From Candidatus Firestoneibacteriota bacterium (GTDB lineage: Bacteria; Oederibacteriota; D2-FULL-39-29; CAIOVX01), in the NCBI GenBank assembly GCA_903861835.1, contig CAIOVX010000060.1:1-64000 (forward strand): a stretch of DNA of 64,000 nucleotides, read 5' to 3'. Positions 749-57,610 of this stretch are shown piece by piece. Numbering within the stretch: the stretch's first letter is position 1; each line of letters begins with the position of its first letter. The notes under the pieces are model-generated. The model had not been told where the DNA came from and ran no database searches. It saw only the letters and a program-made list of their open reading frames with translations. A program made the position numbers and the translations under genes.

Positions 749-1693
749 TCAGAGAGAAAGCTTGGCCGCCATTTTCACGGCTTCAACAAAACTGCTCGTA
801 TCAGCCCTTCCCTTGCCGGCTATGTCAAATGCGGTCCCGTGGTCCGGGGAGGTGCGAATTATGGGAAGGCCCAGGGTAACATTCACGCCTTCCTCAAAAG
901 CTTCCATCTTAAGGGCTACCAGCCCCTGGTCATGGTACATGCAGACCACAGCATCATACTCGCCTCTTTTTGCCTTGTAGAAAAGCGAGTCCGGAGCTAC
1001 GGGCCCGGCAATAACCCCGCGCCTATACTTTGCGCGGGCCGCTTTTATCGCGGGAATTATGACTTTCCGTTCTTCCGTCCCGAAGATCCCGCCGTCTCCT
1101 GCATGAGGATTAAGGCCGGCAACCCCTATTCTCGGGCGACTTATTTTTATTCCGTTTTTCAGATAATCAAAAGTCAGACCTATTTTGGAAAGAACCTGTT
1201 TTTGGGTGATAAGAGCCGGCACCTCTTTAAGCGCGGCATGAGTGGTAACCAGCACTACCCTAAGCCCTCCGCCGCACAGCATCATGGCAAACTCGCGCGT
1301 GCCCGTAAGCGCCGCAAGAAGCTCCGTGTGTCCGGGAAAATTCACTCCCGCCCTGCTAAAGCTCTCCTTGTTGATGGGCGCTGTGACTACCGCTGAGACA
1401 TCCTCGACGAGCGCCTGCGAGACGGCTTCGACAATATATTCATAGGCCGCGCGCCCCGCAACAGCGCTTACTTTGCCGGACCTGACAGGCTTTTTAATAT
1501 TATTTAAATCAACTATGGCGGCGCCTGAGATATCAGCCCTGAATTTCTTCGCCTGGCTCTCCAGGAATGCGCCGTCGCAGATCAGCACGGGTTCGCAGAA
1601 CTGAGAAATAATCTTTACCGACTTAACTATTACTTCCGGACCGATGCCGGCCGCGTCGCCCATCGTTATTGCTATTCTTTTTTTCCCGGTCAT
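749..1693 (-). CDS. pdxA: 4-hydroxythreonine-4-phosphate dehydrogenase
   Basis: PdxA oxidises 4-phosphohydroxy-threonine in the DXP-independent (PdxA/PdxJ) route to pyridoxal phosphate, in the cytoplasm. Family motifs run in order: ITMGDAAGIGPE at the N-terminus, GHTELLA with a metal-binding His, LNPHAGDGG, YHDQGLVALK, and the C-terminal TSPDHGTAFDIAGKG. I place the start at the ATG at 1693 rather than the GTG six bases upstream, because GAGGA at 1701-1705 is well spaced for it. That gives 314 residues, near the usual length. It is the last gene of the gyrA-led operon; pdxJ is not in the window. Confidence 0.95.
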   Translation of the reverse strand: MTGKKRIAITMGDAAGIGPEVIVKSVKIISQFCEPVLICDGAFLESQAKKFRADISGAAIVDLNNIKKPVRSGKVSAVAGRAAYEYIVEAVSQALVEDVSAVVTAPINKESFSRAGVNFPGHTELLAALTGTREFAMMLCGGGLRVVLVTTHAALKEVPALITQKQVLSKIGLTFDYLKNGIKISRPRIGVAGLNPHAGDGGIFGTEERKVIIPAIKAARAKYRRGVIAGPVAPDSLFYKAKRGEYDAVVCMYHDQGLVALKMEAFEEGVNVTLGLPIIRTSPDHGTAFDIAGKGRADTSSFVEAVKMAAKLSL

Positions 1694-1703
1694 AAGCACT
1701 TCC

Positions 1704-2333
1704 TCAGAATTTATTCGCTCCGACGAGCCCGCCCAGAATGCTGTGGGCGTCCTTCAGGAAAGCGAGAAATTTGAACTGCGGCGAAACCGCCGCGAAAATA
1801 CCGGCTATCACAAGTATATTCACGAAAGAGACAAATGCATAGGAGAAAAGAGCGCCCGATTCGTTAAAATCGCTCTGTTTCTGCAGGATAGAATGAATTG
1901 TCAGGATGACGTGGAAAGAGAGCGTGAAACCGACAAAAAATACGGCGTAATCATAGAATTCCTTTTTTATGATAAGACATTGAAGGAGTATGACTACCGT
2001 ATAGAGCGGAAAAAAATAGGGCGCAAGGGTGATGAGGAAATTGGTGCGGCTGACTTTTACATTCCCGCCCTTCCCGGTAACGTGAAACTCAGAGACCTTG
2101 CCGCCGAAAATAAGAGTCCAAACCGCGTGAGTGAATTCGTGGGCCATTATGTGCATAAAGACAGGACGGTAAAGCAGTACATGAAGGAGCAGATAAGCGA
2201 CCACACCGGCAAGAAAAAAAATCTCTGTGCGCTGGGGAGCCTGCAACAGCACAAGCGAGTGTACGAAAGCCCCGGCCAGCAGGAGGCTTAGCGGGATAAG
2301 CAGAAGTCCCAGTATGAACTTGAAGAGCTTCAC
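1704..2333 (-). CDS. M50-like membrane protein with HEFTH motif
   Basis: The 209-residue protein is strongly hydrophobic with about five or six membrane segments. A zinc-protease-type motif, HEFTH, sits at residues 65-69 inside a hydrophobic stretch. This placement recalls the M50 (site-2 protease/SpoIVFB) metallopeptidases, where HExxH lies within the membrane. I do not see a clear second M50 motif (NxxPxxxxDG), so activity is uncertain and it may be a distant relative. It overlaps rsmI by four bases (ATGA) and ends 11 bases before the pdxA start, so it is in the same operon. The substrate is unknown. Confidence 0.6.
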   Translation of the reverse strand: MKLFKFILGLLLIPLSLLLAGAFVHSLVLLQAPQRTEIFFLAGVVAYLLLHVLLYRPVFMHIMAHEFTHAVWTLIFGGKVSEFHVTGKGGNVKVSRTNFLITLAPYFFPLYTVVILLQCLIIKKEFYDYAVFFVGFTLSFHVILTIHSILQKQSDFNESGALFSYAFVSFVNILVIAGIFAAVSPQFKFLAFLKDAHSILGGLVGANKF

Positions 2334-3028
2334 TCTTCCGCCTCCTTTTCCGGCTCGGACTGTTTTACGACAACGCAGAACTCGCCGAGAACTTTTTTGT
2401 CTTTGAAATGAGCCTTTACTTCATCCGGCGTGCCGCGCACAACCTCTTCGAATTTCTTGGTAATTTCCCTGCAAAGCGAAACAAAGCATTCGCCGTAAAC
2501 CTGCTTGATATCATCCAGCGTGTCCATTATGCGGTAGGGAGATTCAAAGAAAACAACGGGAAGCTTTGAACCCTTATAGTTCTCCAGCTCCTTCCTTTTC
2601 TTAGAGGGTTTCTTTTTGAGAAAACCGAGGAAAATAAACCTGTCCGTGTCAATTCCGGAGATGGAAAGCGCGGACACAACAGCCGACGGACCCGGGACGG
2701 CCACGGCCTTTATCCCCTGCTTTTCGGCCTCATCCACCAAAAGCCAGCCGGAATCCGAGATACAGGGCGTGCCGGCGTCTGAGACCACGGCAACGTTCTT
2801 TCCGGCCAGCAGAAGCTCCAGCAGGTAGTTGCCCTTGCCCGTTTTATTATATTCATGATAACTTGTGAGTTTTTTTTCTATGCCGAGATGCTTGAGGAGG
2901 TTGCCGGTAACGCGGGTGTCTTCAGCGGCCACTATATCGCATTCTTTGAGGACGCGTATGGCGCGAAGCGTAATGTCTTCAAGGTTGCCTATGGGAGTGG
3001 CTACGATATAGAGAGTGCCGGGAGTCAT
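2330..3028 (-). CDS. rsmI: 16S rRNA (cytidine1402-2'-O)-methyltransferase
   Basis: RsmI methylates the ribose 2'-OH of C1402 in the 16S rRNA decoding centre using S-adenosylmethionine. The N-terminus carries the family signature LYIVATPIGNLEDITLRA followed by AAEDTR. Further motifs are SDAGTPCISDSG, AVPGPSAVVSALSISG and FLGFL. The C-terminal half has FFESPYRI and LCREITKKFEE. At 232 residues it is shorter than E. coli RsmI and appears to lack the C-terminal extension. It overlaps both neighbours by ATGA, so it is translationally coupled within the operon. Confidence 0.96.
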   Translation of the reverse strand: MTPGTLYIVATPIGNLEDITLRAIRVLKECDIVAAEDTRVTGNLLKHLGIEKKLTSYHEYNKTGKGNYLLELLLAGKNVAVVSDAGTPCISDSGWLLVDEAEKQGIKAVAVPGPSAVVSALSISGIDTDRFIFLGFLKKKPSKKRKELENYKGSKLPVVFFESPYRIMDTLDDIKQVYGECFVSLCREITKKFEEVVRGTPDEVKAHFKDKKVLGEFCVVVKQSEPEKEAEE

Positions 3029-3501
3029 TTTTTCCCCTGAGCGGCGCTCTCCTCCTTCGCAAGGAGCATTTCCGCGCGCTCTTTGTTCAGCCTGTATTTC
3101 TCGAGATCGGGTTTCAAGGCAATCGCGCTGCCGTAGCAGGCGACAGCCTTCCTAAGAAGAGAAAGGTCCTTCTTTACGTAAAAGAGATTTTCGTAAACTA
3201 TTCCGAGATTATTTCGCGCGACATCAATGGTCCCGCATTCCTTCACGGACTTTTCCATGAAAGGAAACGCCTCTTCCCATTTATTCGCCCGAATGTAGAC
3301 GAATCCGATATTGTTGAAGGCCCACGCGCGCGGCACCGCTTCGTCGGCGCGAGAGAGCTCAAATGCCTTATTAAACCATCCTATCTTTTCCGCGTCCGAC
3401 TGCGCCTCATGCCCTTTGCGGAAAGCTTCACCCCTTTCCCAGCTCGGGGACGCCTGAAGCGCCAAGAACAAGAGCGCCGCGAGAAACAGAAGCCGTTTCA
3501 T
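3025..3501 (-). CDS. Small secreted TPR protein
   Basis: The 158-residue protein opens with a likely signal peptide (KRLLFLAALLFLALQAS). About three tetratricopeptide-like helix pairs follow, for example WAFNNIGFVYIRANKWEEAF and ARNNLGIVYENL. TPRs are protein-protein interaction scaffolds; no enzymatic motif is visible. Its start codon overlaps the gyrA stop by one base (TAATG) and its end overlaps rsmI by four. The role is unknown, and a periplasmic location is inferred from the signal sequence. Confidence 0.7.
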   Translation of the reverse strand: MKRLLFLAALLFLALQASPSWERGEAFRKGHEAQSDAEKIGWFNKAFELSRADEAVPRAWAFNNIGFVYIRANKWEEAFPFMEKSVKECGTIDVARNNLGIVYENLFYVKKDLSLLRKAVACYGSAIALKPDLEKYRLNKERAEMLLAKEESAAQGKK

Positions 3502-6068
3502 TATTCTTCCTCATCCTTTGAAGCAAGGCGCGCGACAGCCGTCGCCTTATCGCCTTCGGAAAGCCTTATTAGCCTGACTCCGGAGGTGGACCTGCCGGTC
3601 TGCCTGACGTCCGAAACTTTGCTCCGTATCACAACCCCTGTAGTCGTCATCACCATTATCTCATCGTCCTTCTCAACTGCCTTAATGCCCACGACAAGCC
3701 CGGTCTTTTCGCTGGTCTTAATGTTTATAAGGCCTTTTCCGCCGCGGCCTTGAACCCTGTAGGCGGAGAGGTCAGTTCTCTTGCCGAAGCCCTTTTCGGT
3801 AACCGTGAGGAGGCTGGATTTTTCTTCTACAACCTCCATGCCTATAATGAAATCACCCTTGCCGAGCTTCATGCCTTTCACGCCGATTCCGGAACGCCCT
3901 ATTTCCCGGATGTCGGCTTCTTTAGAACGCAGCGCGTAGCCATTTCTGGTTGCGGTCACAACATTCTGCTTCCCGGTCGTTATCTTAACGCCGATAAGCT
4001 CATCGCCGTCCCGCAGGCGGAGCGCAATAATCCCTGTGGAGCGCGGATTGTTGAACTCGGAGAGCCGGGTCCTCTTAATCATGCCTTGTTTGGTGGCCAT
4101 GACCACGAACATGCTGTCCTTGAATTCCTTAATGGAGAGCGCAGCCGTAATCTGCTCCTGCGTCTCAAGTTTTATCAGGTTAACGATGGGTCTCCCCTTT
4201 GAATACCTGCCCGCTTCCGGGATCTCGTATACTTTCAGCCAGTATACCTTACCCCTGTTCGTGAAAAGCATAAGGTAGTCTTTTGTCGTAGTGGCGAATA
4301 TGTCCTCGACAAAATCATCGTCCTTCGTCTCGGCGCCGGTTATTCCCTTCCCGCCGCGCTTTTGCGCCTTGTAAGAAGTAATCGGAAGCCTCTTCACGTA
4401 GCCCTGGTGGGACATCGTGACAACAACATCCTCTTCCTTTATCAGGTCCTCGATATTAATCTCTGCCTGCTTAGCTATAATTTGAGTCCTTCTCTCATCG
4501 CCGTAGCGGGTTCTTATATCAATAAGTTCTTCCTTGACCACCGCGAGCACATTCTTTGTGTCTGAGAGTATATCCTTCAGCTTTTCAATGAGCTTCAGAA
4601 GTTCTTTGTATTCCGCTTCAAGTTTCTGGATCTCAAGATTCTGCAGCTGCCTGAGCCGGTAATCAAGGATGGCCTGAACCTGCACCTGAGAGAGCTTGTA
4701 TCTCTTCATAAGCTCGGCCTCGGCATCCTTTGAAAACCTGATAATCTTAATCGCCCTTTCGAGGTCGTTTATAATAATGAGCAGGCCTTTAATTATGTGA
4801 ACCCTTCTCTCGGCCTTGTCGAGATCGAATTTTGTCCTTCTGATTATTACCTTGCGCCTGTGCTCGAGGTATTGACTGAGCATGCCCTTGAGATTCAGTA
4901 TCTGCGGCTGCTGGTCAACGAGCGCCAGCATAATTATGCCGAAGGAGGTCTTGAGCGAAGTGTGCTTGAACAGGTTGTTCAGTATTATCTGCGGGTTCTC
5001 GTCTTTCTTAAGCTCAATTACTATACGCATTCCGTCCTTATCCGATTCGTCCCGTATGTCGGAAAGGCCTTCAAGTTTCTTGTCGCGGACAAGCTCGGCG
5101 ATGCTTTCAATAAGCCTCGCTTTATTAACCTGAAAGGGTAACTCGTAAACGATAATTCTCTGCTTCCCGCCTTTCATCTCCTCTATACGGGTCTTTGCCT
5201 GGAGAGTGAGCGAGCCCCTTCCCGTGTTGTAAGCGTCCTTTATGCCGTCGCGACCCAGAATATAGCCGCCTGTCGGAAAATCAGGACCGGTAATTATACC
5301 CATCAATTTGTCTATTGTGATTTCAGGGTTCTCTATGAGCGCGATGATTCCGTTTATGACCTCAGTAAGGTTATGCGGGGGTATGTTGGTTGCCATTCCG
5401 ACCGCGATACCTTCCGCGCCGTTAACGAGCAAGTTAGGTATCTTAGTGGGAAGCACCTGAGGTTCTTCCCTGGATTGGTCGTAGTTTGGTATGAAATCAA
5501 CGGTATTCTTCTCAATATCTGCAAGCACTTCGTCGGAAATTTTCGCAAGCCTCGCTTCGGTGTACCTGTAGGCCGCGGCCGCGTCGCCGTCAATAGAACC
5601 GAAGTTTCCCTGGCCGTCTATGAGCGGATACCTGATTTTGAAATCCTGAGTCAGCCTGACCATCGTGTCGTAAACAGACAGGTCTCCGTGCGGGTGGTAT
5701 TTACCGAGCACTTCACCAACGACCATCGCGGATTTTCTGTAGGGTTTGCTGTGGGTAAGCCCCATCTCGTTCATAGCGTAGAGTATTCTTCGCTGCACCG
5801 GCTTCAACCCGTCGCGCACGTCAGGCAGGGCTCTGCCTACGATAACGCTCATGGCGTAGCTGAGATAGGACGCTTTTATTTCGTCTTCGACATAGATAGG
5901 CTTGACCTTTTCATTCGGGCCTATTCTGACCTCGACTTTGGGTTTTACGGATTTTGTTTCTGCAAGCTCTTCCTGTACCGGTACTGCCTTAACGGGCGCG
6001 CCGGCAGGCTGCTCCTTTTTATGCGAGGGTTTGGGTTCTTTACTATCTTTCTTTTTCTTTTTTGCCAA
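3501..6068 (-). CDS. gyrA: DNA gyrase subunit A
   Basis: GyrA is the DNA-breaking and rejoining subunit of the gyrase A2B2 tetramer that introduces negative supercoils. The 855-residue protein has a Lys-rich extension of about 55 residues before the canonical [20 protein letters not shown]. The catalytic tyrosine is Y169 in [11 protein letters not shown]. The C-terminal pinwheel carries a GyrA box (QKRGGKG), which argues against ParC. In the quinolone-resistance region the motif is [11 protein letters not shown], so L130 is at the position of E. coli Ser83. The start is TTG, chosen for GGAGG at 6075-6079 six bases upstream. It heads a tightly overlapping operon. gyrB is not in the window. Confidence 0.97.
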
Positions 6069-49683: not shown

Positions 49684-50604
49684 ATGATACTAACCGTAAG
49701 CTTAAATAGCGCCTTCCAAAAAGTCCTTGTCTTTGACGAATACACCGAAGGACAAGTCCTGCGCGCGCGCGAATTCCATCAATGCGCCAGCGGAAAGGGA
49801 ATCAACGCCGCGAGAGCCGTGAAAATCCTCGGCGGAGAGGTCGCCTGTTGCGGTTTTTCAGGCGGGATGAATGGCGCGCTGATGAAAGACCTGCTGAAAC
49901 AGGAGACCTTGAGGGAAGAACTCTCCTCAACGGCAACAAACACCAGAGTCTGCCTGACAGTCGTAAACCTCAAGACAAACCTAAACACCGAGCTGATAGA
50001 ACCAAGCGGCAAAGTAAGCGGAGCTGAAGTGAAAAAGTTCCGTTCCACCTTCACTAAACTGCTCAAGAAAACAAAACTTGTCGCGCTCGCGGGCACGCTC
50101 CCCCCTGGATGCCCGGAAGACATTTACGCGGAACTAACGGCAGAAGCGGCAAAAGCCGGAATTACAGTCTGCGCCGATCTCTGCGGCCCTGCCCTGCTCA
50201 GGACTTTCAAGGGCAAGCAAAAACCCTTCCTCGTTAAGATGAATAATCATGAATTCAAGGAAACCTTCGGAGAGCGCAACATTAAAGACGTAATAACCGA
50301 GCTCCTGGCTTGTGGAGTTAAAATATTCGCTGTAACCTTCGGAAAGGACGGCCTTGTCGCGGCTTCAGAAGAAGGGCTCTTTCTTGCGATACCGCCTAAG
50401 CTGACTCCGGCAAACACCATCGGCGCGGGAGATTCCATGCTCGGCGGCTTCTGCAGGGCTATCACAAGCGGCTGCGGGCTGGAGGGAATTTTGCGGGCCG
50501 GAACCGGCGCCGCGGCAGCAAGCGCCTTGACAATGCTTCCGGCTCATTTCACGCGCGAAAAAGCCGCGGAGTATTCCGGGAAGACAGGAGTAAAAAAAAT
50601 ATGA
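49684..50604 (+). CDS. PfkB-family sugar kinase (1-phosphofructokinase-like)
   Basis: The 306-residue protein has the hexose-kinase subgroup features of FruK/LacC: ILTVSLNSAFQKVLVFDEY at the start, ASGKGINAARAVKILGGEV, and the catalytic TIGAGDSMLGGF. Members phosphorylate fructose 1-phosphate or tagatose 6-phosphate; the exact substrate cannot be told. No ribosome site is visible before the ATG. It overlaps the UbiA-family gene by four bases, so a supply role for phosphorylated sugars to that pathway is possible. Confidence 0.82.
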   Translation: MILTVSLNSAFQKVLVFDEYTEGQVLRAREFHQCASGKGINAARAVKILGGEVACCGFSGGMNGALMKDLLKQETLREELSSTATNTRVCLTVVNLKTNLNTELIEPSGKVSGAEVKKFRSTFTKLLKKTKLVALAGTLPPGCPEDIYAELTAEAAKAGITVCADLCGPALLRTFKGKQKPFLVKMNNHEFKETFGERNIKDVITELLACGVKIFAVTFGKDGLVAASEEGLFLAIPPKLTPANTIGAGDSMLGGFCRAITSGCGLEGILRAGTGAAAASALTMLPAHFTREKAAEYSGKTGVKKI

Positions 50605-51476
50605 AAATTCTTACCTCGGTAATTGAGAGTTTGAGGCCGAAGCAGTGGACGAAGAACCTGCTCCTGCTTGCCGCTCTTATATTCTCTTCCAAACTTTTCA
50701 ACTTAAAATTTACGGTGCCCGCTTTTGAGGGCTTCCTTATCTTCTGCCTTTCTTCCGGAAGCGTATACATATTGAATGATCTCATAGACAGAAAACAGGA
50801 CCGCCTGCACCCCGTCAAGAAATTCCGCCCCGTAGCTTCGGGAAGGCTCCCTTCCGGAGCTGCCGCTGCCGCTTGGATTTTCTTTGCGGGCGTCTCCCTG
50901 CTCTGGGCTTTTGCCGTTAACGCTTCCTTCGGCGCGATAGTACTCGCTTATGTTGTCATACAGGCGCTTTACTCTCTCCTTCTTAAGAAACTGGCCATCG
51001 TTGACATCTTTATCATCGCCCTGGGCTTTGTCCTGCGCGTTATAGCCGGCGCCGTGATAATAGACGTTCCTATGTCTCTGTGGTTCATTGTCTGCACGAT
51101 GTTCCTTTCTCTCTTCCTTGCTCTCGGCAAGAGGAGGTTTGAGCTTGTTTCAATAACACCCGGAGCGCGCAGGATCAGCCTGAAAGGTTACAGCGTGGAA
51201 CTGCTTGACCGGATGATTACAATTGTCACGGCCTGCACGGTTATGACCTACGCCCTCTATACAATGGCGCCCGAGACCATCAGCAAATTCAACACAACAA
51301 ACCTCATCTACACACTCCCCTTCGTTCTGTTCGGAATCTTCCGGTATCTCTTTCTCATTTACGGTGAAGGTAAAGGCGGCAGCCCTGAGGACATCCTGCT
51401 CTCGGATATTCCGTTAATAGCCGACATACTCATTTATGGAGCCGCAGTTTGGTTCATAATATACAAACATTTATAG
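50601..51476 (+). CDS. Decaprenyl-phosphate phosphoribosyltransferase-like UbiA protein
   Basis: UbiA-superfamily membrane prenyl transferase of 291 residues with about nine membrane segments. The signature NDLIDRKQDRLHPVKKFRP is that of DPPR synthase (mycobacterial Rv3806c type), which transfers 5-phosphoribose from PRPP to decaprenyl phosphate. LRPKQWTKNLLLLAALIF at the N-terminus and DVPMSLWFIVCTMFLSLFLA are also typical. The product is a lipid-linked pentose donor for envelope glycans. Neighbouring sugar kinase and the M28/AAC(3) fusion suggest a surface-glycan operon. Confidence 0.87.
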   Translation: MKILTSVIESLRPKQWTKNLLLLAALIFSSKLFNLKFTVPAFEGFLIFCLSSGSVYILNDLIDRKQDRLHPVKKFRPVASGRLPSGAAAAAWIFFAGVSLLWAFAVNASFGAIVLAYVVIQALYSLLLKKLAIVDIFIIALGFVLRVIAGAVIIDVPMSLWFIVCTMFLSLFLALGKRRFELVSITPGARRISLKGYSVELLDRMITIVTACTVMTYALYTMAPETISKFNTTNLIYTLPFVLFGIFRYLFLIYGEGKGGSPEDILLSDIPLIADILIYGAAVWFIIYKHL

Positions 51477-51494
51477 TTCAGGGAGGCCTAACAG

Positions 51495-54194
51495 GTGCGT
51501 CTTAGCGATGTTGAAAATATCTCCAAACTTGCCGTAAGCCGACTTTCAATCAGGGAAATAAAAGAACTTTCCATGCAATTCTTTCAATTCGAGAAAGAAT
51601 ACTCCTCTTTTCAGCAGGAAAATTCCGCGCAGCTGGCGTTTGAGCTTTTCAAAGAAGCGGGCGCAAAGACCGAAATGCGCAAGATGAAAGCCGACGGAAA
51701 AACAGCGAGTATGGATTACATCATGCCTCAGTCCTGGGATCCGCGCGACGCGAAGCTTGAGATGCTCTCCCCTTTCAAGGAAACTATCTCCGATTACAAG
51801 ACTGACCGTTTTATGCTCCCTATGAGATGCACCGCGACCCGCGCCGGAGGGCTCACCGGAGAACTTATCCTTGAAAAGGATATTAACAAGAAAGGCGTCC
51901 GCGGAAAATTCATTTTAAGTTCCACCTATAAAATGTTCGGGTGGGATAAAATGAAACTGATAAAAGAAGGCGCAGCCGGAATAATTTCTTCCTGGGCGGA
52001 AAGCGGCGACAAGCTCCCGGATTCAGTTTTTTGGACAAACGGCTGGACAATGGGCTCCGGCTGGTACCACACGGCCGAGGAAAAGCGCATTCTTATGCTG
52101 AACATCTCCTGCAATAAAGGGAAAAGGCTTGAACGCTTTCTGCGGCGCGGGAAAAAAGTAGTGCTGAAAGCCTTTACAGACACCAAAACCTACGCTGGAA
52201 CTCAGCACACGGCTACGGCAGTTATAAGGGGGGGGAACAAAAAAGAAATAGCTATACTCGGACACCTCTACGAACCGATGCCTTCGGATAACTGCATCTG
52301 CGCCGCTTCCATGACGCGTTTTGTCGCTGTAATCAACCGGTTAATTGAAGAAAACAAACTCCCCAAACCTTATTACTCTCTCAGGTTCCTGCTCGGCGCG
52401 GAAAGATACGGCTTTGCCGAATTCTACAAGAACACGAAGAGGGCAAGAAATATTATAGCCAATATTAACTTTGACGCGCTCTGCGTAGACTATAGGAAGG
52501 CCAAGGTACCCTCGGAAATCCGTTACACCCCCGTAAGCAACACAAGTTTCACGGATATTCTGCTGGACAAACTAGTTAAAAAACACAATACAGCTCCGCT
52601 GCGACACGCGCGGGGTAATTTCTCTGATGACACCTTTATGTCGGACCCGCTCGTCAGCGCACCCTGCGTCTGGTTCTGGCAGCCTGAAGGAATCTATCAC
52701 CATAACAGCGAGAATACTTTCGAAGTTGTTGACTGGAAAAGGGTTCTGGAAAAATCCGCGGTAGCCCTTGAATACCTCCTCACCCTCGCTTACCTTGACC
52801 CTCAGGCAGCGGAAGGCTTCCTTCCCGAAGTCGAGAAAGGTTTGGCAGGGCACCTTGAACTTGAATTCTCAAAACTTTTGAAACGCGCCGGAAGTTTTAC
52901 CGAGAAGGAGCTGCTCTCAAACTTGCATTTCGTGAGCAGCTGGCAGGTCAACAGACTGGAATCCCTCTCAACCTTTGGGGTATCCCGTTCCTCGCTTAAA
53001 AAAGCGCAGGACCGGCTCGGACGGCGCATTGAGAAAGCCCTCGAAATCTTCGCAAAAGCCAAAACACTCCCGGAAAAATCTGAGAGTTTTATTTCTCCGG
53101 AAGAACGCAAAGCGTCAAACCTCATTCCCGTCAGGCTTGCAAAATACCCTCCTTCTGACATGGCCAAGGAAAAAGATATCCTGAAAAGACCTCGCAACCC
53201 TTTCTGCGCAGAGAACTTTGTCGCCTGGATGGACGGGAAACGGACCCTCTGGGATGTCATCAAACTTCTTGAGATGGACCTGGAGAAAACATTTACAAGC
53301 GGGCAGCAAAACACTTACATCCATTACGCGCGCGACCTGGAAAGGCTGGGCTACATAAAGTTCAAGTACAGGACAGTTATCGGCAGGAAAGAAATAATAA
53401 GCGGCCTGAAACTGCTCGGCATTAAAAAGGGCGACCGCATTATGGTTCACTCCTCCCTCGCTTCTCTAGGCAAAGTGAAGGGCGGGCCGGAGGCTGTTAT
53501 TGACGCGCTCAAAGCGGCTGTCGGGAAAAGCGGGCTTCTGATGATGCCGTCCTTCAACCACGGAGACGCGGCAAGAAATCCTCCGTACTATTTTGACATG
53601 AAAAAGACGTCTTCAAAGAACGGCGTTATAGCGGATACTTTCTGGCGCCTGCCGGGAGTGAAACGCTCGGTTGACCCTTCCCACGCCTTTGCCGCCTGGG
53701 GCAAGAACGCGGAGCAGTACCTCGCCGGGCACCTCTTCACAAGCACAATGGGAACCGGCTCGCCGCTTGAACTGCTGGAAAGGGGCGGCGGCAAAGTGGT
53801 ATTGCTCGGCACAGGATATGCTCCCAACACCTTCAGGCATGTCGTTGAGATGACGAATAATGTAAAATGCCTCGGCCAAAGAACCGAGGAGTATCCGGTT
53901 AAACTTCCTTCCGGAAAAATGATAAAGGCCAGGACCTGGTCCTGGAGGAACGGCGGCTGCCCTCTCCTTGATGATGTCTCGCATTCGGAACGGCTTATGA
54001 AGGAACGCGGGTTGGACAAGCTGGTGAAGATCGGGAACGCGGAAACCATCATATTTAACACGGCAGACTTTCGGCGCGTTGCCGAAGAACTTTTGGCGAA
54101 AGGAGTTCCGGGAAAGCCCAACTGCAAGGATTGTAAAATGAAGATTGCCTTTACGGGAACGAAGGAAGGGAAGCTACCGACCCAAAAAGTTTAA
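51495..54194 (+). CDS. M28-type peptidase domain fused to an AAC(3)-like acyltransferase
   Basis: The 899-residue protein starts at GTG with GGGAGG eight bases upstream. Residues ~100-430 carry a putative two-zinc M28/DUF4910-like site: H257 (LGHLYEP), D265 (PSDNCICA), E303 (GAERYGF), D327 (INFDALC) and H403 (YHHNSENT). A winged-helix-like segment follows around 570-640. Residues ~645-885 match aminoglycoside 3-N-acetyltransferase/YokD proteins: MVHSSLASLGKVKGGPEAVI, LLMMPSFN, DPSHAFAAWG and LLGTGYAPNTFRHVVE. No signal peptide is seen. The combination suggests removal and addition of acyl or aminoacyl groups on one substrate, probably a surface amino sugar. This is inference. Confidence 0.78.
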   Translation: MRLSDVENISKLAVSRLSIREIKELSMQFFQFEKEYSSFQQENSAQLAFELFKEAGAKTEMRKMKADGKTASMDYIMPQSWDPRDAKLEMLSPFKETISDYKTDRFMLPMRCTATRAGGLTGELILEKDINKKGVRGKFILSSTYKMFGWDKMKLIKEGAAGIISSWAESGDKLPDSVFWTNGWTMGSGWYHTAEEKRILMLNISCNKGKRLERFLRRGKKVVLKAFTDTKTYAGTQHTATAVIRGGNKKEIAILGHLYEPMPSDNCICAASMTRFVAVINRLIEENKLPKPYYSLRFLLGAERYGFAEFYKNTKRARNIIANINFDALCVDYRKAKVPSEIRYTPVSNTSFTDILLDKLVKKHNTAPLRHARGNFSDDTFMSDPLVSAPCVWFWQPEGIYHHNSENTFEVVDWKRVLEKSAVALEYLLTLAYLDPQAAEGFLPEVEKGLAGHLELEFSKLLKRAGSFTEKELLSNLHFVSSWQVNRLESLSTFGVSRSSLKKAQDRLGRRIEKALEIFAKAKTLPEKSESFISPEERKASNLIPVRLAKYPPSDMAKEKDILKRPRNPFCAENFVAWMDGKRTLWDVIKLLEMDLEKTFTSGQQNTYIHYARDLERLGYIKFKYRTVIGRKEIISGLKLLGIKKGDRIMVHSSLASLGKVKGGPEAVIDALKAAVGKSGLLMMPSFNHGDAARNPPYYFDMKKTSSKNGVIADTFWRLPGVKRSVDPSHAFAAWGKNAEQYLAGHLFTSTMGTGSPLELLERGGGKVVLLGTGYAPNTFRHVVEMTNNVKCLGQRTEEYPVKLPSGKMIKARTWSWRNGGCPLLDDVSHSERLMKERGLDKLVKIGNAETIIFNTADFRRVAEELLAKGVPGKPNCKDCKMKIAFTGTKEGKLPTQKV

Positions 54195-54264
54195 AGTCTA
54201 TAACATGCGTGTCATTCTGCCTTTATTACCCGATTTTTACTCAAATTAAGCATATTGCAAACGG

Positions 54265-54594
54265 TTACTTCTTTTTCCTTTGCAACTTATCCTGGTTCTG
54301 CCTTTTATTTATTGCCAGACCAATCAAACAAGCGAAACCTATAGCTATTAGAAGGCTAATTATAAAACAATTGACTAAGGAAAACTTCGCAAAATCTCTA
54401 AAATAGCCAAAAGAAACAGTATTTAATACAACAGTTCCACCGGCAAGCAAAGGAGTAATCATTATTTTACTGTTGCATTTATTTTTGATCAAAAATAGGA
54501 TTATTACAACAGCAATGAACCCAAGCATCAATAGAGACTTTTCAGAAGCAAGATCATAATTAATTACATTTTCAAATATGCTCTTTAAAGTCAT
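54265..54594 (-). CDS. Small three-segment membrane protein
   Basis: The 109-residue protein has three hydrophobic segments (LLMLGFIAVVIILFLI; ITPLLAGGTVVLNTVSFGYF; FIISLLIAIGFACLIGLAI) and a Lys-rich C-terminus. I recognise no family. AAGGAG lies eight bases before the ATG, which supports translation. The gene is visibly more AT-rich than the flanking M28 and uvrB genes, like the adjacent toxin-antitoxin pair, and may have been acquired with it. Confidence 0.55.
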   Translation of the reverse strand: MTLKSIFENVINYDLASEKSLLMLGFIAVVIILFLIKNKCNSKIMITPLLAGGTVVLNTVSFGYFRDFAKFSLVNCFIISLLIAIGFACLIGLAINKRQNQDKLQRKKK

Positions 54595-54735
54595 TTCGAT
54601 GCGCTCCTTTGAACTTTAGTGTTTGCACAATCCCTGTATATGTATTTTACAGCATTTATACAGCCTGCAACACAGTGCATTTTTTCAACTTCTCCAAATA
54701 ATTCCACCCGACACCTGCCGCATTTGAAAAACATA

Positions 54736-55023
54736 CTATTTCACCCGCTTTTCCGCCTTAAGGTAAACCTCATCGTTCCTGCGCAGGCCGACAGCGACAA
54801 CAAATACCGTAACAAGTCCTTTCTCGACCCGGTATATTACCCTGTAATCCATCACCTTTAACTTCATATAACCTTTTAGTTTTTTTCGGAGGGGCTTACC
54901 GTACTTTTCCGGCTCGAAAGAAAGTTTTTTTTCGATTACCACGATGATTGCTTTCCTTATTTCCGGAGAGAGCTTAAGCATATCGTCTATAGCCGAGTCA
55001 GAAAAGACGATGTGCCAGATCAT
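54736..55023 (-). CDS. RelE/ParE-family toxin
   Basis: The 95-residue protein has the RelE fold pattern: WHIVFSDSAIDDMLKLSPEI at the N-terminus, KYGKPLRKKLKGYMKLKVMD, then YRVIYRVEKGLVTVFVVAVG and the terminal LRRNDEVY. RelE toxins cleave mRNA on the ribosome; ParE relatives poison gyrase. It overlaps the antitoxin gene by four bases (ATGA), as expected for a co-translated pair. Confidence 0.9.
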   Translation of the reverse strand: MIWHIVFSDSAIDDMLKLSPEIRKAIIVVIEKKLSFEPEKYGKPLRKKLKGYMKLKVMDYRVIYRVEKGLVTVFVVAVGLRRNDEVYLKAEKRVK

Positions 55024-55298
55024 TCAATCCCCAGTTTCTTCTTTGTTTCATCCATCGTCAAATATTTGACCGGTTTCTTCATCCTCTCTTTCACGATATC
55101 CGAGAAATACTGATCTTCCGCCTCTTCCATTAAATTCTCATATTTCTTGAATTCCTCAATAGACATTATCACAGCGACAGGCTTATACCTTTTTTCAATA
55201 ATAACCCGCCTTGTCATTGCCTCAGCCAGAATCTTATCAAAACTCATTCTAAGTTCAGACGCGCCATAATAGGTCGCCGGTTCTTCTACCCTTCTCAT
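55020..55298 (-). CDS. PHD/YefM-family antitoxin
   Basis: Antitoxin partner of the RelE-like protein. The 92-residue sequence holds the PHD/YefM DNA-binding fold (SELRMSFDKILAEAMTRRVI followed by KRYKPVAVIMSIEEFKKYE) and a C-terminal segment that should wrap the toxin. I start at the ATG at 55298 because GGAGG lies six bases upstream; the ORF can be extended eight codons. Binding sites in the promoter suggest autoregulation. Confidence 0.9.
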   Translation of the reverse strand: MRRVEEPATYYGASELRMSFDKILAEAMTRRVIIEKRYKPVAVIMSIEEFKKYENLMEEAEDQYFSDIVKERMKKPVKYLTMDETKKKLGIE

Positions 55299-55324
55299 AC
55301 TCCGCCTCCGCTGGATCATCATAA

Positions 55325-55401
55325 TGTCAAATTCGTTTCAACCTAAAACATCATACAACTTGTCATTTGATTTGTCAATTATGTTGTCAATTGATATGAC
55401 A
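55325..55401 (-). promoter_or_regulatory. Promoter and operator region of the toxin-antitoxin operon
   Basis: On the minus strand TTGACA (55373-55378) and TATGAT (55350-55355) are 17 bases apart. AxTTGACA-like words occur at 55325-55332, 55361-55368, 55373-55380 and 55385-55392. An inverted repeat TGTCA-N7-TGACA spans 55385-55401. The copies flank and cover the -35 box, fitting autorepression by the antitoxin complex. Confidence 0.7.
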
Positions 55402-55480
55402 TATACATTTGGGCGCTAACTAAAATATGCAAAACGGTATCGGCTCTCCCATTGCCATAAGTGACCCGGGTATATGGCTT

Positions 55481-55504
55481 GAAAGGAGCGCATAAATGGA
55501 TTAA
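55481..55504 (+). promoter_or_regulatory. Ribosome site and two-codon upstream ORF before uvrB
   Basis: GAAAGGAG (55481-55488) is ideally placed for the ATG at 55496, but that ATG reads ATG GAT TAA and stops at once. The uvrB ATG at 55514 is in the same frame, 28 bases from the ribosome site. Either uvrB is reached by reinitiation after a minimal upstream ORF, or a former N-terminal extension has been broken. Confidence 0.55.
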
Positions 55505-55513
55505 AATGAACAA

Positions 55514-57610
55514 ATGGACTTCAAACTCGTATCCGAATACAGCCCCACAGGAGACCAGCCTCAGGCGATAGAGAAACTCGTCAAGGGCATCAGGGCAAAC
55601 GAAAGGAACCAGACTCTCCTCGGCGTGACCGGCTCCGGCAAAACCTTTACCGTGGCAAATGTCATTGCCGCAACGCAGAAACCGACGCTGATAATATCCC
55701 ATAATAAAACGCTAGCCGCCCAGCTCTACGGCGAGTTTAAATCCTTCTTCCCGGAAAACGCGGTAGAATACTTTGTCAGCTACTACGATTATTACCAACC
55801 CGAGGCTTATCTTCCCTCCACCGACACTTATATAGAGAAAGACGCTTCCATAAATGACGAAATAGACAAACTCCGCCATTCCGCGACAGCTTCCATTCTA
55901 ACTCGGCGCGACTGCATCATTGTCGCGAGCGTCTCCTGTATTTACGGAATCGGCTCGCCCGAGACCTATCAGAACATGCACCTTGCGCTTGAAGAAGGGC
56001 AGAACCTGCATATGGACCAACTGCTCTCAAAACTCGTCGAGATACAATACATCCGGAACGACATGGACCTCTACCGCGGGACCTTCCGCGTGAAAGGCGA
56101 CACCGTTGACATCTTCCCGTCGGCGGCGGATACGGTCATACGCTTGCAATATGACGGCAACACCATAGAAAAAATCACGGAGATAGACGGGTTCTCCGCG
56201 GAAGTCAAGAAGCGGATGAAGAGCGCCATAATTTTTCCCGCGGCCCACTGGGTCACCCCTCCCGACCAGCTTAAGGCAGCGGTCAAGCATATTGAAACAG
56301 AACTTGACCTAAGGTTGATTGACCTTAGAAAAATGAACAAGCTTGTCGAGGCGCAAAGACTGGAACAGCGCACCCGCTTTGACATGGAGATGATGCTGGA
56401 AGTCGGGACCTGCAAGGGCATTGAAAACTACTCGCGCCACCTGGACGGAAGAAAGCCCGGGGAGCCGCCCTTCACGCTGGTGGATTACCTGCCGAAAGAC
56501 GGGCTGATAGTCGTTGACGAAAGCCACATTACCCTCCCGCAGATACGGGGCATGCACGAAGGAGACCGCGCGAGAAAGACAAATCTGGTGGAGTACGGAT
56601 TCCGGCTTCCTTCGGCGATAGACAACAGGCCTTTGAAGTTCCCTGAATTTGAGAAAAGAATCCCCCAGATACTTTATGTCTCCGCTACACCTGCCGATTA
56701 CGAACTGAAGGCCTCGGGCAAGCCGATTGAGCAGATAATCCGGCCCACGGGCCTTATGGATCCGGAAGTTTGCATAAAGAAGGCCACGGGGCAGATCGAT
56801 GACCTCATCGGAGAGATAAAAACCGTGGTTGACAGGGGCGAGCGCGTGCTGGCTACCACTCTCACGAAGAAAATGGCGGAGGAACTTACCGACTATCTAA
56901 AAGATATCGGAATCCGGGCCAAGTACCTGCACTCCGACATTGAAACCCTTGAAAGGATAAAGATATTGCAATCTCTCCGCGCCGGGGATTTTGATGTACT
57001 CGTCGGCATAAACCTGCTCCGCGAAGGACTGGATCTTCCCGAAGTATCTCTCGTGGCCATTCTTGACGCGGATAAGGAAGGATTCCTTAGGTCAGAGACC
57101 TCTCTCGTCCAGACTATCGGGCGCGCGGCGAGGAATGTGGCCGGCCGCGTCATTCTTTACGCGGATAAAATGACCGGTTCCATCAATCGGGCAGTCTCTG
57201 AAACAAACCGCAGGCGCGAAGTACAAAGGGCCTACAACATAAAACACGGCATCACCCCGACGACCATAAAGAAACAGATCAGGGAAATAATGAACAGCGT
57301 TTACGAACAGGATTACTTCACCGTGCCGCTTGCCGCGGAAAAAGGCGGCGAGTACCTGACCGCGGACGAAATCCCGAAACTCCTCTCCGAGCTTGAGGCG
57401 GAGATGCAGGGCTACGCCAAGAAACTCCAGTTTGAGAAGGCCGCGGCCGTCCGGGACAGGATACGCCATTTTAAATCGCAGATAGGCAAGATGAACGAGA
57501 GCGGCTTTATTCCCTCAAAGTTGCTGAAGGATGAACCGCTGTCGTATGCGGAAAAAAAGGGTCTGGCGAGAAGGATAGGGGCGGTAAAAGCGAAAAGGTA
57601 TAAGAGATGA
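55514..57610 (+). CDS. uvrB: Excinuclease ABC subunit B
   Basis: UvrB verifies DNA damage and recruits UvrC in nucleotide excision repair. The 698-residue protein has Walker [15 protein letters not shown], the beta-hairpin [17 protein letters not shown], the DEAD-type box [15 protein letters not shown], motif VI region [11 protein letters not shown], and the C-terminal UVR domain ([15 protein letters not shown]). The first residues [18 protein letters not shown] align with the usual UvrB start, so the ATG at 55514 is right even though its ribosome site is displaced. uvrA and uvrC are not in the window. Confidence 0.98.

Follow-up and report, generated by a model that had tools for sequence, protein, structure and literature searches.

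A gene joining an M28-like metallopeptidase fold and an AAC(3)-type acyltransferase in a Candidatus Firestoneibacteriota bacterium

The Campylobacter protein Cj1295, which contains the domain DUF2172 and is a putative M28 family member (PMC6321876), is required for 5-(2,3-di-O-methylglyceroyl)amino pseudaminic acid and was proposed to cleave the 5-acetamido group of pseudaminic acid for replacement (PMC3068675). Its gene adjoins Cj1296/7, an AAC(3)-like gene annotated as aminoglycoside N3'-acetyltransferase (PMC3025981). Related DUF4910 genes are found in sugar-modification clusters together with aminosugar N-acetyltransferases, and unspecified gene fusions of DUF4910 were mentioned by Das et al. 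(PMC4000134). For DUF4910/DUF2172 proteins, including the phase-variable Cj1295, the literature searched provides structure and phenotype and gives no reaction; many members of the AAC(3) family are likewise non-resistance enzymes without an assigned substrate. The removal and replacement of an N-acyl group has already been published for separate genes. A fusion of an M28-like and an AAC(3) domain in one chain, of which no description was found in the literature searched (supplements were outside its scope), is the new point of the present work. The fusion was noticed in a stretch of 64,000 nucleotides, here called the window (contig CAIOVX010000060.1 of assembly GCA_903861835.1); coordinates in the window refer to the plus strand unless stated otherwise.

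Architecture and conservation of the fusion gene

The fusion gene (51495..54194) reads without interruption from a GTG start through 899 codons to the stop; 8 nt before the start lies a strong ribosome-binding site, AGGGAGG (51480..51486). It is present as a single copy in its own genome. From the N- to the C-terminus the protein would consist of an M28-like metallopeptidase fold (residues 1–435; 51495..52799) with a PA-type insert (residues about 81–232), a helical bundle following the M28 core, as judged from the AF2 secondary structure (residues 436–534; 52800..53096), a winged-helix-like segment with the motif WMDGKRTLWDV (residues 535–625; 53097..53369) and an AAC(3)/Antibiotic_NAT acyltransferase domain (residues 630–868; 53382..54098). 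The initial, sequence-only reading of this DNA thus named both halves correctly, in the right order and with a winged-helix-like segment between them. Inspection by eye recognised no signal peptide. A CxxC motif at the C-terminus (C877, C880; 54123..54134) is kept in fused relatives and in some stand-alone AAC(3) proteins; in the fused and some of the stand-alone AAC(3) proteins of Firestonebacteria it often takes the form C-x4-C-x2-C, possibly for metal binding.

Assignment of the winged-helix-like segment is based on helices predicted for it, on conservation of the motif W-x-DG-K-R-T-L and on a fold alignment with 3k9t which is long enough to include it. It also aligns significantly with homologous segments at the C-terminus of the separate M28 protein of a relative without the fusion (G010, see below) and at the N-terminus of stand-alone AAC(3) proteins. 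With E values up to 10 admitted, the profile HTH_47 (PF16221) had no match to this segment among 10 relatives, and the model of the helical and winged-helix stretch folded on its own was of poor quality (pLDDT 54).

Two of the three other genomes of the genus (G003 and G004) contain the full-length fusion in the same frame and with the same length, without indels and with 82% identity; in the third (G005) the gene is cut by the end of a contig after residue 684. Between species, dN/dS is about 0.1 in every domain, i.e., every part of the fusion is under purifying selection. More diverged fusions of about 920 amino acids with the same domain order and 25–30% identity occur in G006–G009, four of the five genomes of the sister family. 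That an assembly or frame artefact joined two genes, a concern raised when the fusion was first noticed, is therefore excluded: the frame and length recur in independent genomes of the genus, selection extends across the joint, and diverged relatives are fused as well, which leaves this explanation virtually impossible. The second concern, absence of the fusion from close relatives, is likewise removed by the intact genes of G003 and G004, the contig-cut gene of G005 and the diverged fusions of G006–G009.

Comparison of positions 53100–56100 with G003–G005 showed a rise of nucleotide identity from about 73% to 88–91% near residue 540 of the fusion, with high values continuing into the UvrB gene; identity at fourfold sites rose from about 40% to about 75% in the same stretch, and the G005 gene is 99–100% identical over fusion residues 601–684. 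The jump in both measures points to homologous recombination that had a breakpoint within the fusion gene.

The two halves and their active sites

When used alone, the M28 half had no match in Pfam, neither to Peptidase M28 (PF04389) nor to DUF4910 (PF16254). A profile of its family, however, matched the M28 aminopeptidase 2ek8 (1.3e-11) and the DUF4910 protein 3k9t (5e-10), and relatives in the sister family matched both Pfam models; L008 and L018 scored above threshold with each (PF04389, 37.7 and 62.7 bits vs 21.3; PF16254, 31.0 and 39.4 bits vs 26.6). The AF2 model of this half (mean pLDDT 73) matched 2ek8 at 7.9e-19 in Foldseek. The best Foldseek matches were PA-containing M28 aminopeptidases; 3k9t was matched at 8e-16 over 626 columns, compared to a target of 422 residues, a length sufficient to include its C-terminal winged helix. 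Model and profiles together thus predict an M28 fold in the N-terminal half, and also the 3k9t type of fold with its insert and C-terminal winged helix.

Likely metal ligands are H257 and D265 in the stretch GHLYEPMPSDN (residues 256–266; 52260..52292), D327 (52473..52475) and H403 (52701..52703), according to alignments and a table of relatives; E303 (52401..52403), the Glu that is left of the M28 EE pair, would by sequence fit a ligand or a base. E303 and H403 are invariant in 10 relatives, and all five residues are kept in nine of these over large divergence, the exception being L009. Position 259, which is the Asp of HxD in M28 peptidases, is Tyr in all 10, and the residue after E303 varies (R, C, I, V or M), so that a single Glu of the EE pair remains. 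The ligands of a two-zinc site, which had been noted at the outset, are therefore present as far as the five residues are concerned, but the catalytic Asp is replaced by Y259 and the second position of the EE pair is variable. In L009, a fused protein from G009 (1402-4161), H257 is changed to R and D327 to N, with the acyltransferase residues intact, as would result from the decay of one metal site; L009 would appear to be a natural half-dead variant. According to the M28 scheme, H257 and D327 probably belong to one metal site, and their joint loss supports their assignment as metal ligands. With respect to active-site losses the M28 half resembles the DUF4910 proteins 3k9t and Cj1295 more than the classical peptidases; for DUF4910, in which similar active-site erosion is found, Das et al. 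concluded that it is probably not a peptidase (PMC4000134).

By its sequence, the C-terminal half is unambiguously classified as an AAC(3)/Antibiotic_NAT acyltransferase. Pfam Antibiotic_NAT (PF02522) matched residues 650–867 with E=1.2e-48 and 166.2 bits (gathering threshold 25 bits), and FrbF and AAC(3)-IVa were matched in the PDB. The active-site blocks HSS (residues 652–654) and DPSHA (residues 727–731) are retained, as had been stated from the sequence. Of the catalytic motif TxPhiHPhiAE, which was defined for the Antibiotic_NAT family (PMC8956665), T779, H782 and E785 are kept (T779-x-x-H782-x-x-E785; 53829..53849), and R781 and V784 deviate by replacing a hydrophobic residue and A, respectively.

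Separate-gene relatives and gene neighbourhood

Genome G010 is without the fusion. It possesses an M28 and winged-helix gene for 624 amino acids (L005), with UbiA upstream and UvrB downstream, the same neighbours as those of the fusion gene in the window; a winged-helix and AAC(3) gene (L016) is located on another contig. A second gene of the latter type (L017) is carried by G008, besides its fusion. In the tree of M28 parts L005 grouped with the genus proteins, and in the tree of AAC(3) parts L016 and L017 did so, with support of 100/100 in both cases. A single clade comprising every AAC(3) domain that is fused or linked to a winged helix was not rejected (p-AU 0.476). The trees would be compatible with one fusion followed by fission, or with two independent fusions; on either history the two halves are evolutionary partners. 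Since the nearest sisters of both halves exist in G010 as two genes, each with a winged-helix segment, the halves probably behave as functional partners, which is evidence of the Rosetta-stone type.

Other arrangements of these domains were also encountered. A stand-alone M28 and winged-helix gene, L049 (8286-10089 of G006:C85), has a frame break near residue 72, due to pseudogene formation or a sequencing error. Another AAC(3) fusion, with the domain behind HEAT-like repeats in a protein of 581 amino acids, is encoded by L025 (G009:C20, 520-2262). Matches from Rhizobium, considered as members of the M28 subfamily of the fusion, were rejected, since they are plain M28 peptidases with a PA domain. 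Among the plasmid matches listed, coverage was at most 28%, with none at 80% or above and no fusion; searches of phages with the M28 part gave one weak partial match and none covering most of this part, and viral contigs yielded no relative. A scan of genome contigs, which is insensitive to distant relatives, returned the genus members alone. In the annotated cases, no AAC(3) gene adjoined a plasmid-borne M28 homolog. On haloarchaeal plasmids (L064, L065) stand-alone AAC(3) genes were found close to those for PIG-L family deacetylases, at a distance of a few genes, perhaps another pairing of deacylation and re-acylation.

The fusion gene is preceded by genes for a PfkB hexose kinase (49684..50604; TIGR03168 above cut-off) and a UbiA-family decaprenyl-phosphate phosphoribosyltransferase (50601..51476; NF008977 above cut-off), an order which is common to the window and the genus. 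The nature of these partners, the overlap of 4 nt between them and the gap of 18 nt between UbiA and the fusion gene suggest a putative operon for sugar phosphates and lipid-linked sugars, with PfkB as its first gene. Heptose genes (GmhA, the HldE kinase domain and GT9) are located upstream of the fusion on the opposite strand. A pair of a ParE-like toxin and a Phd/YefM antitoxin (54736-55322, minus strand) separates the fusion gene from UvrB; G010 has no such pair at this place, and its M28 gene and UvrB are 38 nt apart. In none of the genomes examined is the fusion gene part of a sugar-modification cluster. In the genome to which the window belongs (G000:C38, 5088-8029; L075) a DegT aminotransferase gene adjoins that of a long NeuB synthase with a C-terminal cupin, and amino-deoxy sugars are thus plausible substrates. 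Strong matches to long NeuB were present in all eight fusion-bearing genomes of the order and missing from G010; no more than a hint is to be taken from this co-occurrence, which tracks phylogeny. A haloarchaeal homolog of 674 amino acids with M28 and winged-helix parts (P0002) is encoded among genes for a peptide-type ABC transporter, M20 and M32 peptidases, a membrane dipeptidase and an acetamidase, and a homolog from Pantoea is found two genes from an amidase.

Possible function and comparison with known systems

AAC(3) enzymes draw on cytosolic acyl-CoA. The explanation which is favoured here, tentatively, is that of a cytoplasmic bifunctional enzyme which could remodel the N-acylation of an amino sugar or a similar amine, bound for a surface glycan or a lipid-linked sugar. 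The M28-like half of DUF4910 type would hydrolyse or accept an amide at a zinc site, e.g., by removal of an N-acetyl or aminoacyl group; the AAC(3) half would then use acyl-CoA to acylate the freed amine again, and the winged-helix segment could position the two halves or a substrate carrier. Hydrolysis, the order of the steps, the substrate and the acyl donor are those which we infer. An exchange of N-acyl groups at the amine of a glycan, by removal and replacement, as had been considered in the sequence-only reading, is plausible by analogy; it is compatible with all findings and matches both the hypothesis for Cj1295 and Cj1296/7 and the role of DUF4910 in sugar modification. The alternative target named in that reading, an antibiotic, has nothing in its favour except the family name. 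Counted in support of the favoured explanation were the domains, the split genes of G010, the literature on Campylobacter and DUF4910, the UbiA partner, the NeuB and DegT genes, and L009; counted against it were the missing M28 catalytic Asp and one Glu, the position of the gene outside sugar-modification clusters in the genomes examined, and the phylogenetic pattern of NeuB. Since the acyltransferase of L009 is intact without the metal site, the two activities need probably not be obligately coupled. A more far-reaching generalisation, namely that M28-like domains of the DUF4910 type act as non-canonical deacylases of N-acyl amino sugars, in obligate pairing with AAC(3)-type acyltransferases, and that the fusion is a single-chain N-acyl exchange enzyme with a shared winged-helix segment docking both steps, appears rather doubtful.

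A different possibility, somewhat less probable than the favoured one, is that the M28-like half is a dead scaffold which binds substrate or a partner protein, as the transferrin receptor is a non-peptidase M28 homolog, and that the AAC(3) half is the sole enzyme, which would N-acetylate an amino sugar of the cell surface. Replacement of the catalytic Asp by Y259, the lost Glu, the further ligand losses of L009 with its acyltransferase residues kept, and the doubts of Das et al. about a peptidase activity of DUF4910 (PMC4000134) would all fit; yet H257, D265, E303, D327 and H403 are kept in nine of 10 diverged relatives, beyond the needs of a scaffold, and the M28 half has a low dN/dS. The surroundings of P0002 and of the Pantoea homolog, as well as the fold matches to aminopeptidases, could point to the catabolism of peptides or amides by an aminopeptidase or amidohydrolase, with acetylation of the released amine for scavenging or detoxification instead of glycan biosynthesis. 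This is improbable in view of the non-canonical active site and of PfkB and UbiA as partners in the window, where transporters or peptidases are not the neighbours. Glutaminyl cyclase is a non-hydrolytic M28 enzyme, and the M28-like half might similarly transfer an aminoacyl or glutaminyl group onto an amine, which the AAC(3) half would cap. Such a transacylation was proposed as an alternative for DUF4910 (PMC4000134), but positive sequence evidence for it was not found in the fusion, and its probability is considered small. An aminoglycoside resistance enzyme with an accessory peptidase domain, finally, is highly improbable, despite the membership in the AAC(3) family: the scores are far below all NCBIfam cut-offs for AAC(3) resistance proteins (AAC_3_IV, 124 vs 420 bits; AAC_3, 111 vs 270 bits), FrbF, YokD and BA2930 of the same family do not act on aminoglycosides (PMC8956665), and the operon context is that of sugar and lipid metabolism. 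A resistance gene as the leading idea was dropped on account of these scores and the gene context.

The natural fusion, together with the split genes in a relative, ties both families to one pathway, and the fusion represents one expressible protein in which a deacylate-then-reacylate chemistry is directly testable. The DUF4910/DUF2172/HTH_47 proteins (CA_C2195, which is 3k9t, and Campylobacter Cj1295) share with it an M28-like fold with a PA-type insert, a C-terminal winged helix and an incomplete M28 catalytic site, and they are tied to modified-sugar biosynthesis and N-acyltransferases. They differ by their size of about 435 amino acids, usually without an acyltransferase, whereas the fusion adds the helical bundle and the AAC(3) domain; the spacing of zinc ligands is also different, and the DUF4910 score is reached by relatives of the fusion, not by the window protein itself. 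The aminopeptidases 2ek8, BSAP (6hc6) and 3iib, as well as GCPII and the transferrin receptor, share with it the fold and the arrangement of domains, PA insert included; PA-containing M28 aminopeptidases possess HxD, EE and two zinc ions, whereas the fusion has Tyr for Asp and lacks one Glu. The AAC(3) half has the whole fold, the HSS block and T-x-x-H-x-x-E in common with FrbF (3sma), AAC(3)-IVa (6mn3) and YokD. AAC(3)/Antibiotic_NAT enzymes are normally stand-alone proteins of about 270 amino acids, whereas here the domain forms the C-terminal part of a fusion and scores below all resistance cut-offs.
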